A stretch of 9,719 nucleotides of DNA from Pseudomonadota bacterium. GTDB lineage: Bacteria > Pseudomonadota > Alphaproteobacteria > Rhizobiales > Xanthobacteraceae. This document shows positions 1 through 9,719 of the stretch, piece after piece. Both the position numbers and the translations under genes were made by a program. Below the pieces are notes generated by a model, which saw nothing but the letters and a program-made list of their open reading frames with translations, ran no database searches and had not been told where the DNA came from. Position 1 is the first letter of the stretch; each line of letters begins with the position of its first letter. Location: NCBI GenBank assembly GCA_023390695.1, contig JAEWCJ010000255.1, positions 1-9,719 of the forward strand. The letters are read 5' to 3'.

Positions 1-567
1 GCCCGAGGCCGCGCTGGTGGTTTCGCGATCGACGATCAGCTTTCCGTTGCGGCGGACATGTTCATCGTTCTCCTTGATGAGCAGCCAGTTGTCCGAATCT
101 TTCTTGTATCGGTCCTTCGGACTGCGCGCGCGCAAGCGCACCAGCGCCCAATTGCCGTGCAGCCTTTTGCCATGCAGTTCGAAACTCAGCTTGCCCTTCT
201 TGAGCGCGGCCTCGACGTCGTCCTGATGCGGCGCCCAGGTCCCGCGATCCCACAGCATCACCGTGCCGCCGCCATATTCGCCTTTCGGAATCGTGCCTTC
301 GAAATCGCCATACTCGACCGGATGATCCTCGACATGCACGGCGAGGCGCTTGTCGTCGGGGTTTTCGCTCGGGCCCTTGGGCACGGCCCAGCTCATCAGC
401 GTGCCGTTCCATTCCAGGCGGAAGTCGTAATGCAGCCGCCGCGCCGCATGTTTCTGAATGAGATAGCGCAGCGTGGGTCCGGATTTGCGGGCCCTGCCCT
501 TCGGTTCCGCCGTGCGCGTGAAATCGCGTTTCGCCTGGTATTCCTGCAGACGATCCGCTTTCGGCAT
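1..567 (-). CDS. ligD: DNA ligase D, N-terminal 3'-phosphoesterase domain (partial, runs off the left edge)
   Basis: This is the first 189 codons of a LigD-type protein of bacterial non-homologous end joining. LigD trims, fills and seals double-strand breaks held by Ku. The visible part is the phosphoesterase (PE) domain, which removes 3'-phosphates and 3'-ribonucleotides. Its signature runs from QKHAARRLHYDFRLE (residues 38-52) through WAVPKGPS, EDHPVEY and FEGTIPKGEYGGG to WLLIKENDEH. The known Pseudomonas aeruginosa catalytic set (H42, H48, D50, R52, H84, Y88) maps with a constant offset of two to H40, H46, D48, R50, H82 and Y86, so the domain looks active. The start ATG (567-565) lies 2 bp after the ku stop (sequence TGATCATG), implying translational coupling. 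Ligase and polymerase domains would lie outside the window. A stand-alone PE protein cannot be excluded, because the stop is not visible. Confidence 0.93.
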   Translation of the reverse strand, partial: MPKADRLQEYQAKRDFTRTAEPKGRARKSGPTLRYLIQKHAARRLHYDFRLEWNGTLMSWAVPKGPSENPDDKRLAVHVEDHPVEYGDFEGTIPKGEYGGGTVMLWDRGTWAPHQDDVEAALKKGKLSFELHGKRLHGNWALVRLRARSPKDRYKKDSDNWLLIKENDEHVRRNGKLIVDRETTSAASG

Positions 568-569
568 GA

Positions 570-1484
570 TCAGGCCGCCGTCTTCTTGCGGGTCGTCTTG
601 CGCCGCGAGGCCCCCGCGGCTTTCTTCTTGGCGGTGCGCCGTCCGCCGCCGGAGGCACGCGCCGGCTTCTCGCTCTCCCTGTCAGCGTTCCGCTTGGCGC
701 CGCCCTCCTTGCCGACAGAGCGGCGGAGCGCATCCATCAGGTTGATGACATTGCTAGCGGGCGCGGCTTCCTCGATTTCCTTCGGCGGACGTTTCTCGAG
801 CTTGGCCTCGATCAGTTCGCGCAGGGCGGTGGTGTAGGTGTCCTTGAACTGCTCGGGGTGGAAATCGCTTGCCTTCTTCTCGATCAGGGTTTCCGCCAGC
901 TCGATCAATTCGGCATCGGCCTTCTTGGCCGGAATGGTATCGAAGGCGCTGTCCGGCTTTTTGACCTCGTCGGCATAGCGCAGCGTCTCCATCATCAGCC
1001 CCTTGCCGTTGGGCTTGATGGCGACGATCGAGCCCTTGCCGCGGACCACCAATTGTCCCAGCGCCACCTTGCCGGTTTTGCGCAACGCTTCCCGCAACAC
1101 GATATAGGCCTCTTCGGCGTCCTCGTCCTCCTCCTTCGGCAGCACGAAATACGGTTGCTCGAAATAGATCGGGTCGATCGCGTCCGCGTCGACGAATTGC
1201 ACGAGGTCGATGGACTTCTTCGCCTCCAGCTTCACGCCTTCGATGTCCTCGTCGGTCAGCAGCACGTATTTGCCCTTCTCGACCTCGTAGCCCTTCACAA
1301 TATCCTCGGCCTCGACGGGGCCCACGCCCGGCACCACCTTCTCGTAGCGGATGCGCTTGCCGGTCGGCTCGTGGATCTGGTTGAAGGAAATGCGGCTGGC
1401 GGATCGGGTGGCCGGGATGACCTCGACCGGAATGGATACGAGGGCCAGCCGGATACGGCCGGACCAATATGCGCGGGTCGCCAT
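570..1484 (-). CDS. ku: Ku, NHEJ DNA-end-binding protein (304 aa)
   Basis: Bacterial Ku forms a homodimeric ring around double-strand break ends and recruits LigD. The protein opens [20 protein letters not shown], the typical Ku N-terminus. It continues with the core motifs [35 protein letters not shown] and [18 protein letters not shown], and then [22 protein letters not shown]. The last ~49 residues are a Lys/Arg/Ala-rich tail ([13 protein letters not shown] and following), as in many Ku proteins where it contributes to DNA binding and LigD contact. At 304 aa it is of normal family length. The start at 1484 is supported by a purine-rich Shine-Dalgarno sequence (GAGGGGA, complement of 1491-1497) 6 nt upstream. 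Longer readings of the same frame extend antisense through uvrA and are spurious. It precedes ligD by 2 bp on the same strand and diverges from uvrA. No promoter was identified with confidence. Confidence 0.96.
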
Positions 1485-1613
1485 GCGGATTCCCCTCTTA
1501 CTCGCGACAAACGGGGCCTGAGAGAAGGAGGAACGGCTGGACCGGAAACGGGTTCCCGCCCTGCACCCAAGGAAGCGGTGATATGTGGAGCGAGGGGCTG
1601 GCGGAACGCCGCC

Positions 1614-1715: not shown

Positions 1716-4661
<2,946 letters not shown>

Positions 4662-4663
4662 TG

Positions 4664-5422
4664 CTAGTACTTGGAGTAAACGTTGAGCATGAGTATTTCT
4701 AAGTGAGACGCGACCGCATGTTCGGCGACGATCAAAGGATTAGGATGTCCACATTGATTTCTCAAATCTAATCGATCCTGCAATATCTTTTTTTCTGCCT
4801 TATGCAAAATACTTGCGTCTTGAGAGAGCTGTAACAGGTCCGCCTCTCCCATGGTACCAAAGTCCTTTATGGTTCTTACAGGTGTGAAACTCCACGTCTT
4901 GCCATTTGATGCCGCCCTCGCCATCCTAGCTAGTCCTGCTGCATTAAAATCGCCAATATGATTTGCGACTATGTGCTCCTGAAGGATGTGGGCGGCCCCC
5001 ACCCAAGAAAGCACTACTGCAGAACGATAGGCTTTTGCGTCAAAACAGCGAATTGCTTCCTCAACAAATGCTCGGCGCTGCTCGTTTGATATCTTTGCTA
5101 AATGCGACTTAAGCGAATGTCGCGTCTCTGCGACCATTGGAGCTTCAGGGTTGTAGTGGCTGGCAATTGCTTTCAACCCGGGGGTCAATAACTTCCAGCC
5201 ATGGGCAAGTTGAGCAACTTGTCCCTCATTGGCAGCGCTCTTCAGAACGTCGCTCAGGTTCCACTGGGTGATAGCTCTAAACCCAATCTGAAGACCTTTA
5301 TTTCTAACTGCTACCGTTTTTGCGGGCTGTTCAATATGAGCCAGTATCAAGAGGGCCGGCACCCTTCGGTTAATTTTCGCCAGATCTTGAACTGCTAAAA
5401 GCAAATCTTCATCGCTCAGCAA
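4664..5422 (-). CDS. Putative HEPN-domain protein with N-terminal winged-helix-like module (252 aa)
   Basis: I do not recognise a named family. The last gene of the operon appears to have two parts. Residues 1-90 look like a small winged-helix or helical module ending GWKLLTPGLKAIASHY, which resembles the C-terminus of the upstream gene product. Residues ~105-252 are all-helical and resemble a HEPN domain, with AYRSAVVLSWVGAAHIL (131-147) and near the end DRLDLRNQCGHPNP (217-229). R221-N222-x3-H226 fits the HEPN RNase motif, R plus a polar residue with His after a four-residue gap. HEPN proteins of this type are usually metal-independent RNases in toxin-antitoxin, abortive infection or CRISPR systems; RNase activity here is inference. 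The start is TTG, because an in-frame TGA lies just upstream and a strong GGAGGA sits 7 nt before it. The gap to the upstream gene is 15 bp. The stop lies 2 bp from the uvrA stop, with no terminator visible. Confidence 0.8.
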   Translation of the reverse strand: MLSDEDLLLAVQDLAKINRRVPALLILAHIEQPAKTVAVRNKGLQIGFRAITQWNLSDVLKSAANEGQVAQLAHGWKLLTPGLKAIASHYNPEAPMVAETRHSLKSHLAKISNEQRRAFVEEAIRCFDAKAYRSAVVLSWVGAAHILQEHIVANHIGDFNAAGLARMARAASNGKTWSFTPVRTIKDFGTMGEADLLQLSQDASILHKAEKKILQDRLDLRNQCGHPNPLIVAEHAVASHLEILMLNVYSKY

Positions 5423-5429
5423 TCTTCAA

Positions 5430-5435
5430 TCCTCC
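5430..5435 (-). promoter_or_regulatory. Shine-Dalgarno site fixing a TTG start
   Basis: On the minus strand this reads GGAGGA, 7 nt before the TTG at 5422-5420. It lies in the 15-nt gap between the stop of the 195-aa gene and the HEPN gene. No ATG is available in frame near the N-terminus, and an in-frame TGA directly precedes AGA-TTG, so this site decides the start. Confidence 0.75.
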
Positions 5436-5437
5436 GA

Positions 5438-6025
5438 CTATTTGACCAATTCTCTTATCAAGTTTGCCGCAGCCTTAAGGCCAGGTGCAGTTAGCTTCCA
5501 ACCACCACTTTTGGAGCCAGTGAGGCCGTTGCCAATCTCCTTCATAAATCTTGAATGATTGGCGACATCGTAACAACCAAGGGCTTCACAAAGACTCCGC
5601 GCCGTCTTATCGGCGAATGTAGGCTCCCCAGAAGTCAAGAGCCCAACTAAGCCGGACAACAGATAAGCTTTCGCCGTCTTTTCCGCGTTGCTTTTTCCAG
5701 AAATTTCAGACGCAATCACAGCCACTTTTCCGTCAGCAATATCAAAAACGTGCTGCAAATCATCAATCGTGAGCGAATTCTGCTTCATCCACAGCCGCGC
5801 CCGCGCGGGCAGATCGCCTGCTTCGCCCAACGCAGCACTATCTTCGCTAGAAGAAGCATGGGACTTTGATATCGGGGCCTCGCCCAAAATAACCAAAGCC
5901 GCTTGAACGACTTTCTGCCTTTCTGGCGATGTCAATGGACCCAACGTTCGCACGACATTTTCGATGGCAGCCATTGCTCTTTCAGCATCGGCCATCGGTG
6001 TTTCCGGTGCTGAACTATTTGCCAT
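5438..6025 (-). CDS. Unassigned protein, middle gene of the SOS-linked operon (195 aa)
   Basis: No family was recognised. Residues 15-50 form a helical stretch (AMAAIENVVRTLGPLTSPERQKVV) resembling residues 12-40 of the upstream gene product. Residues 51-75 are a Ser/Ala/Glu-rich linker. Residues 76-195 look like a compact folded domain with SLTIDDLQHVFDIADGKVAV, then FADKTARSLCEALGCYDVANH, ending in SGGWKLTAPGLKAAANLIREL. That end closely matches GWKLLTPGLKAIASHY in the downstream HEPN protein, suggesting a shared winged-helix-like element for DNA or partner binding. There is no signal peptide or membrane segment, so it should be cytoplasmic. The start at 6025 overlaps the end of the upstream gene by 11 bp and has AAGGAAAA about 10 nt upstream; an in-frame ATG at 6094 lies deep in the upstream gene and is less likely. 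ATG at residue 11 is another option. It is probably a DNA-binding, regulatory or antitoxin-like partner, but this is not demonstrated. Confidence 0.82.
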   Translation of the reverse strand: MANSSAPETPMADAERAMAAIENVVRTLGPLTSPERQKVVQAALVILGEAPISKSHASSSEDSAALGEAGDLPARARLWMKQNSLTIDDLQHVFDIADGKVAVIASEISGKSNAEKTAKAYLLSGLVGLLTSGEPTFADKTARSLCEALGCYDVANHSRFMKEIGNGLTGSKSGGWKLTAPGLKAAANLIRELVK

Positions 6026-6497
6026 CGCTGAGTTTTCCTTCAATTTCGGCAAGCGCAGCATCCGACAGGCTGAATACGTTCTTCGACTTTTCAAAGAGCG
6101 TTCCCGCCTCCATCATTCGCTTAATATTTATGGCCATTTGATTTGAGTAATTGGACTTCCAATTCCGCGCGTCCTTTGCGCAAGCGACCAAATCTTCTTT
6201 GGTGAAACTATCTTTGCCTTGAAACAGAGTAAGGTGACCGGCCGCGGCCAAAACTAAGTCGCGCGCCGATTTGGCTCCAATCTTTTGAGCCACAACGCTG
6301 ACAGTTCCGTCACGTCGCGCCGCTTGTGGAGTTTGAGCTGTCGTTCCGTGATCTGCGGTCTTACGTGCTTTGCGGCCAATTTGGCCATCGATCCACGACA
6401 GCACGGATTCTTTCGCGTCATCATCAAGGGGCTTTAACGCCTCCATGATGGTCCGCATCGCTGCGAGTTGAACTTCATAAATAGGTTGGTCAGACAT
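6015..6497 (-). CDS. Unassigned winged-helix-like protein, first gene of the SOS-linked operon (160 aa)
   Basis: No named family was recognised. The N-terminus (residues 10-40, LAAMRTIMEALKPLDDDAKE and following) is a helical segment with a '...LKPL..dak..vl.w' pattern common in small regulatory proteins and similar to that of the next gene. Residues 42-65 are a basic, Thr/Ala-rich linker. Residues 75-157 look like a winged helix: helices through SARDLVLAAAGHL and FTKEDLVACAKDA, a Lys/Asn-rich recognition-like helix with NYSNQMAINIKRMMEAG, and a hairpin GTLFEKSKNVFSLSDAALAE. It is probably cytoplasmic and DNA-binding, or a scaffold for its neighbours; this is inference from pattern, not from a match. 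The ATG at 6497 has a clear AGGAG 6 nt upstream. It is the promoter-proximal gene, 23 bp from a LexA box, and overlaps the next gene by 11 bp. Confidence 0.85.
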   Translation of the reverse strand: MSDQPIYEVQLAAMRTIMEALKPLDDDAKESVLSWIDGQIGRKARKTADHGTTAQTPQAARRDGTVSVVAQKIGAKSARDLVLAAAGHLTLFQGKDSFTKEDLVACAKDARNWKSNYSNQMAINIKRMMEAGTLFEKSKNVFSLSDAALAEIEGKLSDGK

Positions 6498-6503
6498 TCT
6501 ATT

Positions 6504-6508
6504 CTCCT
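6504..6508 (-). promoter_or_regulatory. Shine-Dalgarno site of the operon's first gene
   Basis: The minus strand reads AGGAG, followed by a 6-nt spacer (AATAGA) and the ATG at 6497. It supports this start and shows that the operon has a good translation initiation site. Confidence 0.8.
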
Positions 6509-6520
6509 AAAAGTTGAATA

Positions 6521-6535
6521 GAACATACTGCGAAC
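6521..6535 (-). promoter_or_regulatory. Candidate LexA (SOS) box of the HEPN operon
   Basis: The minus strand reads GTTCGCAGTATGTTC, an exact GTTC-N7-GTTC direct repeat. It lies 23 bp before the first ATG of the operon and covers the predicted -10 and the downstream half of the spacer, the position expected for repression by steric exclusion of RNA polymerase. It has the same form and spacer length as the box upstream of uvrA in this window, though the seven spacer bases differ. Confidence 0.75.
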
Positions 6536-6551
6536 AGAAACCACCCGTCAA
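6522..6551 (-). promoter_or_regulatory. Sigma70-like promoter of the HEPN operon
   Basis: On the minus strand, TTGACG (complement of 6546-6551, 5 of 6 to consensus) is followed by an 18-nt spacer and TATGTT (complement of 6522-6527, 4 of 6). Transcription would begin about 10-18 nt upstream of the ATG at 6497, leaving room for the AGGAG at 6504-6508. The LexA box overlaps the -10 and spacer. Confidence 0.6.
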
Positions 6552-8182: not shown

Positions 8183-8340
8183 TCTGGCGTTGCCCTCGCC
8201 CGCCCTGTGCCGTCTTCGCGCTCCCCCGGGCCGGCGAAAGCGGCATCCGGCATTTGAACCTGCCGCCGGACTCACGCCACTAACCGGTTCCCGCCTTGCG
8301 CGGCTTTGCGCCGCGCCGTCATTTCAACCGGACTGTCCGC

Positions 8341-9719
8341 ATGTCGAATCTGTCGCTGGGTCTCTTCCGCTGTCTCGCCGGGCTTGCGCAGGGCGTCGCG
8401 CTCTATCTCCTGTATCATGCGGCGGACCGGAGCGTCTGGCCGGCGACCGACGGCCCGCTCTTCGCCGCCCTGCTCGTCGCCGTCGCCATCGTGCCGCTGA
8501 TCCTGATCGCCGGCGCCGGCCAGATGCGGCCGCGTACGCTCGCGGTCTGGACGCTCGTCGCCGTCGTGCTCTGCGCCGCTGCCGGCGCCTACGACATCCT
8601 CCGCGATCCGGTGATCATCTCCACCGACGCGATCCGGCCGCGCCACCTGCCAAGCCCGCAATTCTGCCTGGCCTTCGCAGCGGTCCTGTTCATCCTGCAT
8701 GCATTCGTCGCCGCGGGCGACGCCGACCGCCGCCGCATCGCCACCTATCCGACCTATTTCGACATCGCCTGGAAACTCGGCGTGCAGGCCGCACTCGCCA
8801 CCCTGTTCGTGAGCGTCTTCTGGGTGCTGCTCTGGCAGGGCGCGGGACTGTTCAAGCTGATCGGGATCGGCGTCATCGGCGATCTGTTGAGGGAGCGCTG
8901 GGTCGCCATTCCGGCAAGCGCGGTGGCCTTCGCCTGCGCGCTGCACATCACCGCCACCCGCGCCGGCCTCGTCACCGGCGCGCGCACGCTGACGCTCACG
9001 CTGCTGTCCTGGCTGCTGCCGGTGATGACGCTGTTCGTGGTGGCCTTCCTGCTTACGCTGCCGTTCACCGGGCTGGAACCGCTGTGGAGCACCCGCCGCG
9101 CCACATCCATTCTTCTTGCCGCCGCCGCCGCGCTGATCATTCTCGTCAACACCGCCTATCAGGACGGCCGCCCGGACAACCCGGTTGCGGCGGTGCTGCG
9201 CTGGGCGCGGCTCATCGCGGCGCTCGCCCTGTCGCCGCTGGTCGTGCTCGCCGGCTACGGGCTGCTGCTGCGCGTGCAGCAATATGGATGGACGCCCTCG
9301 CGCATCCTGACGCTGGCCTGCGTCATCGTCGCCGCCTGCTACGCAGCGGGCTACGGTTATGCCGCCCTCCGCTCCCGGCTCGCCCTGAAGCAGTTCGAGA
9401 TCACCAACATCGCAACGTCGTGCGCAATCGTCGCCGTCATCCTCGCGCTGCTGTCGCCGCTGGCAGACCCGGCGCGCATTTCCGTCGCCGACCAGATGCA
9501 GCGCCTGCAATCGGGCAAGGTCGCGCCGGAAAAATTTGATCTCGCCTTCCTGCGCTTTCATGCCGGCCGTTATGGCGCGGCGGCGCTGGAGCGCATCGCC
9601 GCGGACGTTCCCGCGCTGGCCGAGCGCGCGAAACTGGCGGCGGAGGCCAAAAGCAAATGGCAGATCCTGCATCAGACGCAGCCGGTGACCGCCGAAAACC
9701 GCCGCAGGCATATCAGCGT
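8341..9719 (+). CDS. DUF4153-like polytopic membrane protein (partial, runs off the right edge)
   Basis: The first 459 codons of an inner-membrane protein resemble the DUF4153 family, which has no established function. About eleven hydrophobic segments are visible, roughly at residues 10-27, 38-58, 66-84, 107-125, 146-170, 188-206, 217-242, 254-272, 286-311, 321-343 and 355-374. A soluble C-terminal part follows (from SVADQMQRLQSGKVAPEKFD), with FLRFHAGRYGAAALERIA typical of the family end. The ATG at 8341 is chosen because an in-frame TAA lies at 8281 and no ATG falls between; a TTG at 8296 is possible. No strong ribosome binding site is seen. Codon use is strongly G/C at third positions. 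Long open frames on the other strand and in frame +3 (from 8190) over the same DNA are Arg/Gly/Ala-rich shadows. The stop is beyond the window. Confidence 0.85.
   Translation, partial: MSNLSLGLFRCLAGLAQGVALYLLYHAADRSVWPATDGPLFAALLVAVAIVPLILIAGAGQMRPRTLAVWTLVAVVLCAAAGAYDILRDPVIISTDAIRPRHLPSPQFCLAFAAVLFILHAFVAAGDADRRRIATYPTYFDIAWKLGVQAALATLFVSVFWVLLWQGAGLFKLIGIGVIGDLLRERWVAIPASAVAFACALHITATRAGLVTGARTLTLTLLSWLLPVMTLFVVAFLLTLPFTGLEPLWSTRRATSILLAAAAALIILVNTAYQDGRPDNPVAAVLRWARLIAALALSPLVVLAGYGLLLRVQQYGWTPSRILTLACVIVAACYAAGYGYAALRSRLALKQFEITNIATSCAIVAVILALLSPLADPARISVADQMQRLQSGKVAPEKFDLAFLRFHAGRYGAAALERIAADVPALAERAKLAAEAKSKWQILHQTQPVTAENRRRHIS

Follow-up and report, generated by a model that had tools for sequence, protein, structure and literature searches.

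The stretch of DNA analysed here (the window, 9,719 nucleotides of an alphaproteobacterial contig) carries a three-gene operon, A to C, whose probable product is an enzyme that cuts RNA and is controlled by DNA damage. Its most likely purpose is either abortive defence against phages or a damage checkpoint. The analysis itself provides the gene layout, the predicted HEPN fold of protein C, the kept motif of that fold, a near-constant partner gene and LexA-type boxes that recur upstream of related operons. From these we infer that LexA represses the operon, that C cuts RNA, that the partners inhibit or target C, and that the benefit is defence. HEPN ribonucleases are the end point of many defence and toxin systems. 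To our knowledge, few of them are wired to LexA, and the collection of papers searched contained none that combines 'LexA box' and HEPN.

The compact three-gene operon described in the initial annotation was reproduced in all its coordinates, including the 11-bp overlap of A and B and the 15-bp gap between B and C (Table 1). The unusual start codon of C has a GGAGG ahead of it (read by eye), and its position is common to the relatives of C in the alignment. The operon was said to sit in low-GC DNA, and indeed its GC content is 49% against 65% in uvrA, a textbook SOS gene whose 3' end flanks it on one side, a stretch of normal GC content lying on the other. The Rfam, tRNA and repeat searches revealed no feature marking an insertion. 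Elsewhere in the window, Pfam recognised a LigD phosphoesterase domain and Ku beside uvrA (1-1496, minus strand), which is an end-joining repair pair adjoining an SOS gene, and a DUF4153 protein that runs past the window end (8296-9717, plus strand).

Table 1. Features of the operon and of the neighbouring uvrA gene, in window coordinates.
Feature	Position	Strand	Remarks
Gene A	6497-6015	minus	ATG start, 160 aa
Gene B	6025-5438	minus	ATG start, 195 aa
Gene C	5422-4664	minus	TTG start, 252 aa; predicted winged helix and HEPN
Winged-helix domain of C (predicted)	5144-5380	minus	residues 15-93, from the model alignment
HEPN domain of C (predicted)	4667-5089	minus	residues 112-252, from the model alignment
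Catalytic-type motif R221-N-Q-C-G-H226 of C	4745-4762	minus	conserved in the family
LexA-type box GTTC-N7-GTTC of the operon	6521-6535	minus	near edge 24 bp upstream of the A start codon
Promoter-like hexamers TTGACG-18-TATGTT	6522-6551	minus	TATGTT inside the LexA-type box
uvrA	1716-4661	plus	convergent with gene C, 2 bp apart (junction 4659-4664)
LexA-type box upstream of uvrA	1614-1628	plus	internal comparison

The AlphaFold2 model of C (pLDDT 90.1, pTM 0.63) was divided by structural alignment into an N-terminal winged helix, which resembles PadR/MarR regulators, and a C-terminal HEPN bundle. A Foldseek search with this model gave no match below E 0.001; the HEPN protein 2hsb was found at a probability of 0.99. 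HepT was among the matches of the structural alignment. Structure prediction thus upholds the HEPN fold that had been proposed for this protein. The proposed RNase motif is present as well: R221, N222, G225, H226 and P227 do not vary across 24 of 24 sequences, one of them from the window. The pattern R-N-x-x-[GA]-H-P was retained by 89 of 90 C proteins (the window's again counted, and 13 partial, duplicate or differently built rows excluded), some of which are only 23-29% identical to the C protein of the window. In the sole exception, L063, the reading leaves the family right after RNGC. The motif that defines the HEPN superfamily is R-x4-6-H, and C combines it with a predicted helical bundle. 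Searched against Pfam, C had no match, and other searches returned weak ones; all 61 of its family matches, counting the window's own protein, carry the precomputed Pfam label PF27235. The close relatives among them come from metagenomes and share 56-71% identity with C. Phage sequences contained no match to C. On its sequence and predicted structure, C would act as a HEPN ribonuclease that cuts RNA and carries a winged helix at its N-terminus.

The other two proteins found 56 (A) and 8 (B) matches, the window's own again being counted. A gene of 120-260 aa lies directly upstream of C in 61 of 68 loci from several phyla (60 of 67 without the duplicate L070), the remaining seven being contig-edge, fragment or differently built rows, and when these 61 genes were clustered (single linkage, E 1e-3), 57 grouped with A of the window and four with B. 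The constant part of the family is a two-gene core, namely a small partner gene directly 5' of the winged-helix-HEPN gene. Around this core the related operons carry one to three small partners: a 121-aa protein and a B-type protein before C in L076, a protein of about 140 aa, a B-type and an A-type protein before C in L055 and L078, three partners in L082, and one protein of about 200 aa in the class II loci (e.g. L083, L084, L086, L087, L091 and L092). In L085 and L153 no more of a partner can be recognised than its last 36 residues, which we count against our best explanation. With partner number varying in this way, and with so few matches for B, the idea that the three genes are conserved as a fixed unit had to be rejected; presence across unrelated loci was borne out for relatives of the core pair, which were found in many of them. 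For eight of the C and A homologues the longest contig is equal in size (counted by eye), which suggests that these homologues share contigs.

Neither Pfam nor PADLOC 2023, in the versions used, has a model dedicated to these operons. Their occurrence is scattered: one bacterial family had matches in 20 of its 391 genomes (E up to 1e-3) and an order in 9 of 397 (E up to 1e-20), while class II was present in 6 of 265 genomes of one genus (E up to 1e-30). Because of this scatter and of its low GC content, the window's operon looks like a foreign, acquired cassette, and horizontal gain is the likely origin. Viral contigs yielded one locus with C, whose upstream protein has the same sequence as the one in L059, and none when searched with the alignment of close relatives of C. 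Among plasmids there was one distant relative of C, and no match for A or for the operon DNA. This relative (L158, plasmid pLM19O1) belongs to a pair annotated merely as hypothetical proteins; roughly 2 kb away lie an annotated antitoxin/VapC toxin pair and a site-specific integrase. Two genomes hold a further, altered locus: that of L093 has a decaying copy with an internal TGA in the HEPN gene (L155), and that of L090 has a shortened partner gene (L150).

Protein A is predicted to have an N-terminal helical hairpin, a low-confidence linker and a C-terminal domain in which a winged helix is suspected, but its model is poor (pLDDT 70.1; best Foldseek E 4.2) and profile comparison with the winged helix of C lends no support (about 1%). 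Residues 90-147 of A match AbiEi weakly, at E 0.0086. B starts with a hairpin like that of A (hhalign 79%), continues with a middle part and ends in a segment similar to the winged helix of C (hhalign 84%). Hence, the earlier description of A and B as two winged-helix-like proteins holds for the C-terminus of B, by profile similarity, and is not confirmed for A; a winged-helix-like part is also predicted at the N-terminus of the third protein, C. Two kinds of N-terminus were distinguished by eye among the partners, a probable strand-helix type and the helical hairpin type, to which both A and B of the window belong. The A-type is the commonest partner in the family, and B is an accessory one. 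Neither A nor B matches a nucleotidyltransferase in Pfam at E up to 10, as had been stated. We take both to be small partner proteins that would bind C.

The exact LexA-type box of the window overlies a promoter-like site. GTTC-N7-GTTC is given as the LexA motif of Alphaproteobacteria in PMC3323433. In the window the pattern (read as GAAC-N7-GAAC) occurs twice, where 0.23 is expected, a count reached in 5 of 200 shuffles. As to the operon's own promoter, the promoter-like hexamers exist as described, but their consensus match alone lies within chance (one found, 2.1 expected). In the window, L076 and L055, a TTGAC hexamer is followed by a box overlapping the expected -10 (by eye).

Comparison across relatives shows that the box is not family-wide, but recurrent in three clades. 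Exact boxes were found up to 200 bp upstream of the first gene in 8 of 84 loci (the window, L055, L076, L087, L090, L091, L092 and L093; duplicates and loci without an identified first gene excluded), a test that is partly post hoc, as the stretch was widened to 200 bp and some start codons were moved after boxes had been noticed. GTTC at 13 other spacings (2-15 except 7) occurs in 0 or 1 of the 84 loci. When all 256 half-sites were tried at the same spacing, just TGTT, a shifted version of GTTC, also reached 8; TTCT, which overlaps GTTC as well, reached 4, and the next 3. Three loci added later (a box in L156, none in L157 or L158) bring the overall count to 9 of 87. In the narrower stretch from -120 to +40, exact boxes number 6 of 83 against 0, 0, 1, 0 and 0 in five controls. 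Tolerating one mismatch leaves a small excess over these controls (21 of 83 against 13, 7, 15, 9 and 10). The first test, run before the loci from L071 on were available and with B counted as the first gene of L055, had given no box at any of 61 loci. Gammaproteobacterial LexA boxes were absent from 61 loci. The class II boxes lie mostly near -150, which is far for a repressor site (L087 has its box at -41), and they are not all independent because the upstream DNA is partly similar. L055 comes from Rhizobiales, and the other box loci besides the window come from the family of L025, a Rhodopseudomonas. On a quick tree of 88 C proteins, in which 37 of 85 inner branches are open and which leaves L093, L157 and L063 outside, the rows with boxes fall into three separate clades, with at least 6 changes. 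SOS control is thus not supported as a trait of the whole family, and the box of the window, recurring as it does upstream of related operons, is unlikely to be a product of chance.

The tail-to-tail arrangement of C and uvrA is found in four genomes (the window, L055/L078, L105 and L112) and amounts to four changes in four places of the same tree. The side of uvrA, occupied by HEPN operons that lie in separate parts of the tree, is possibly an integration hot spot. In L111, the operon sits between ssb and gyrA. Among the neighbours with a Pfam match, housekeeping and transport functions predominate in the 25 of 127 families listed. Proximity to defence genes, which had been suggested as a check, was not supported: PADLOC families number 57 near the operons and 39 far from them, in samples of 148 of 315 near ORFs (60 loci) and 146 of 223 far ORFs (52 loci) chosen by a simple composition rule; among the families listed (25 of the 57 and 25 of the 39) there is no clear difference that would signal a defence island. 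We count this against a defence reading.

The closest relatives of the HEPN domain of C are PD-T7-3 and the solved protein Dandelion (PDB 9wx2 and 9wxf), both of which are built differently. PD-T7-3 is described as an anti-phage protein of E. coli in PMC9519451; PMC10799925 relates BxaP/ORF376 to it structurally and says that PD-T7-3 is absent from defence islands. The PADLOC model of PD-T7-3 has a weak match in C of the window (E 1.8e-4, spanning 39 residues). Of ten related proteins compared with this model, 7 match it at E up to 0.1, the best being L096 (1.8e-27) and L088 (2.3e-6). Dandelion was matched in its HEPN part at E 3.5e-4 with the class II profile and at 0.022 with the A1 profile. 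However, PD-T7-3 and BxaP/ORF376 are single genes, whereas C has separate partner genes; the PD-T7-3 model spans 432 positions and Dandelion 460 aa (motif region RHLSAHP), both HEPN first, whereas C is shorter and begins with its winged helix. C does not fit this architecture of a single gene of about 430-460 aa, and we rejected its identity with PD-T7-3 for that reason. No paper on the Dandelion HEPN was found in the literature. L095 and L096 encode HEPN proteins of 440-449 aa like PD-T7-3, the latter matching solved Dandelion at 3.8e-13. The claim that the operon bears no known defence signature has to be qualified for the HEPN part of C. A HEPN/MNT (HepT-MntA) pair was likewise rejected, because Pfam gave no nucleotidyltransferase match in A or B. 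The operon may nonetheless work like HEPN/MNT or PD-T7-3. AbiE resembles it in the weak AbiEi match of A and differs in that the presumed effector C is a HEPN protein; AbiEii models had no match in C at E up to 1. Some EC042_2821-type HEPN proteins also have a wHTH fused to HEPN, but this type has a restriction-enzyme-like domain as well and lies in restriction-modification operons (PMC3710099).

The explanation that we favour, with a likelihood only slightly short of even, is an acquired, LexA-gated HEPN ribonuclease effector that is held or aimed by small partners and cuts RNA after damage. A rather doubtful contender is an ordinary toxin-antitoxin system, in which A (with B) would be the antitoxin of the HEPN toxin C, kept by addiction, and LexA control a later addition in some lineages. 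The near-constant small gene directly upstream, the short overlaps, the plasmid-borne relative close to a toxin pair, the weak AbiEi match and the HepT match would all suit it, but up to three partner genes would be unusual for such a pair, and LexA-type boxes in three clades suggest a regulated response over addiction. We consider it unlikely that C is a checkpoint ribonuclease without a phage role, slowing translation during repair. SOS control and the repeated place at the side of uvrA would fit this, yet the patchy presence (20/391 and 9/397, at different E limits) together with the low GC content better fit an acquired accessory system, and 78 of 87 operons are without an exact box.

Alternatively, the winged helix of C could bind DNA while the HEPN domain merely senses a ligand or dimerises, which its resemblance to PadR/MarR regulators would allow, and PMC3710099 lists some HEPN families as inactive; with the motif kept in all but one member, including some of only 23-29% identity, a regulator that cuts no RNA is improbable. 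Least probable of all is a chance origin of the window's box, with the operon having no connection to SOS. In a related genome, exact matches do turn up roughly every 45 kb, near the frequency of a control pattern (129 and 110), and the first test was negative at all 61 loci, but the contrast with other spacings and the TTGAC hexamer shared with L076 and L055 speak against this.

In the LexA-gated effector that we favour, LexA would repress the operon until DNA damage, for example from phage replication, removes it and expression rises. A and B would bind C and either block its activity or guide it to nucleic acid, and a second cue, relayed by the partners, would free it. Freed C would then cut cellular or phage RNA, stopping growth or phage production. 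A broader proposal, which we regard as somewhat doubtful, is a modular family of DNA-damage-gated RNA-cutting immunity, in which interchangeable partners with two kinds of docking module serve one winged-helix-HEPN effector, LexA control arose on several occasions, SOS primes the system and the partners time its firing. Should this hold, the operon family would be a widespread one whose RNA-cutting effector is armed by DNA damage, and its partner swapping would offer a natural series for learning what the partners sense.
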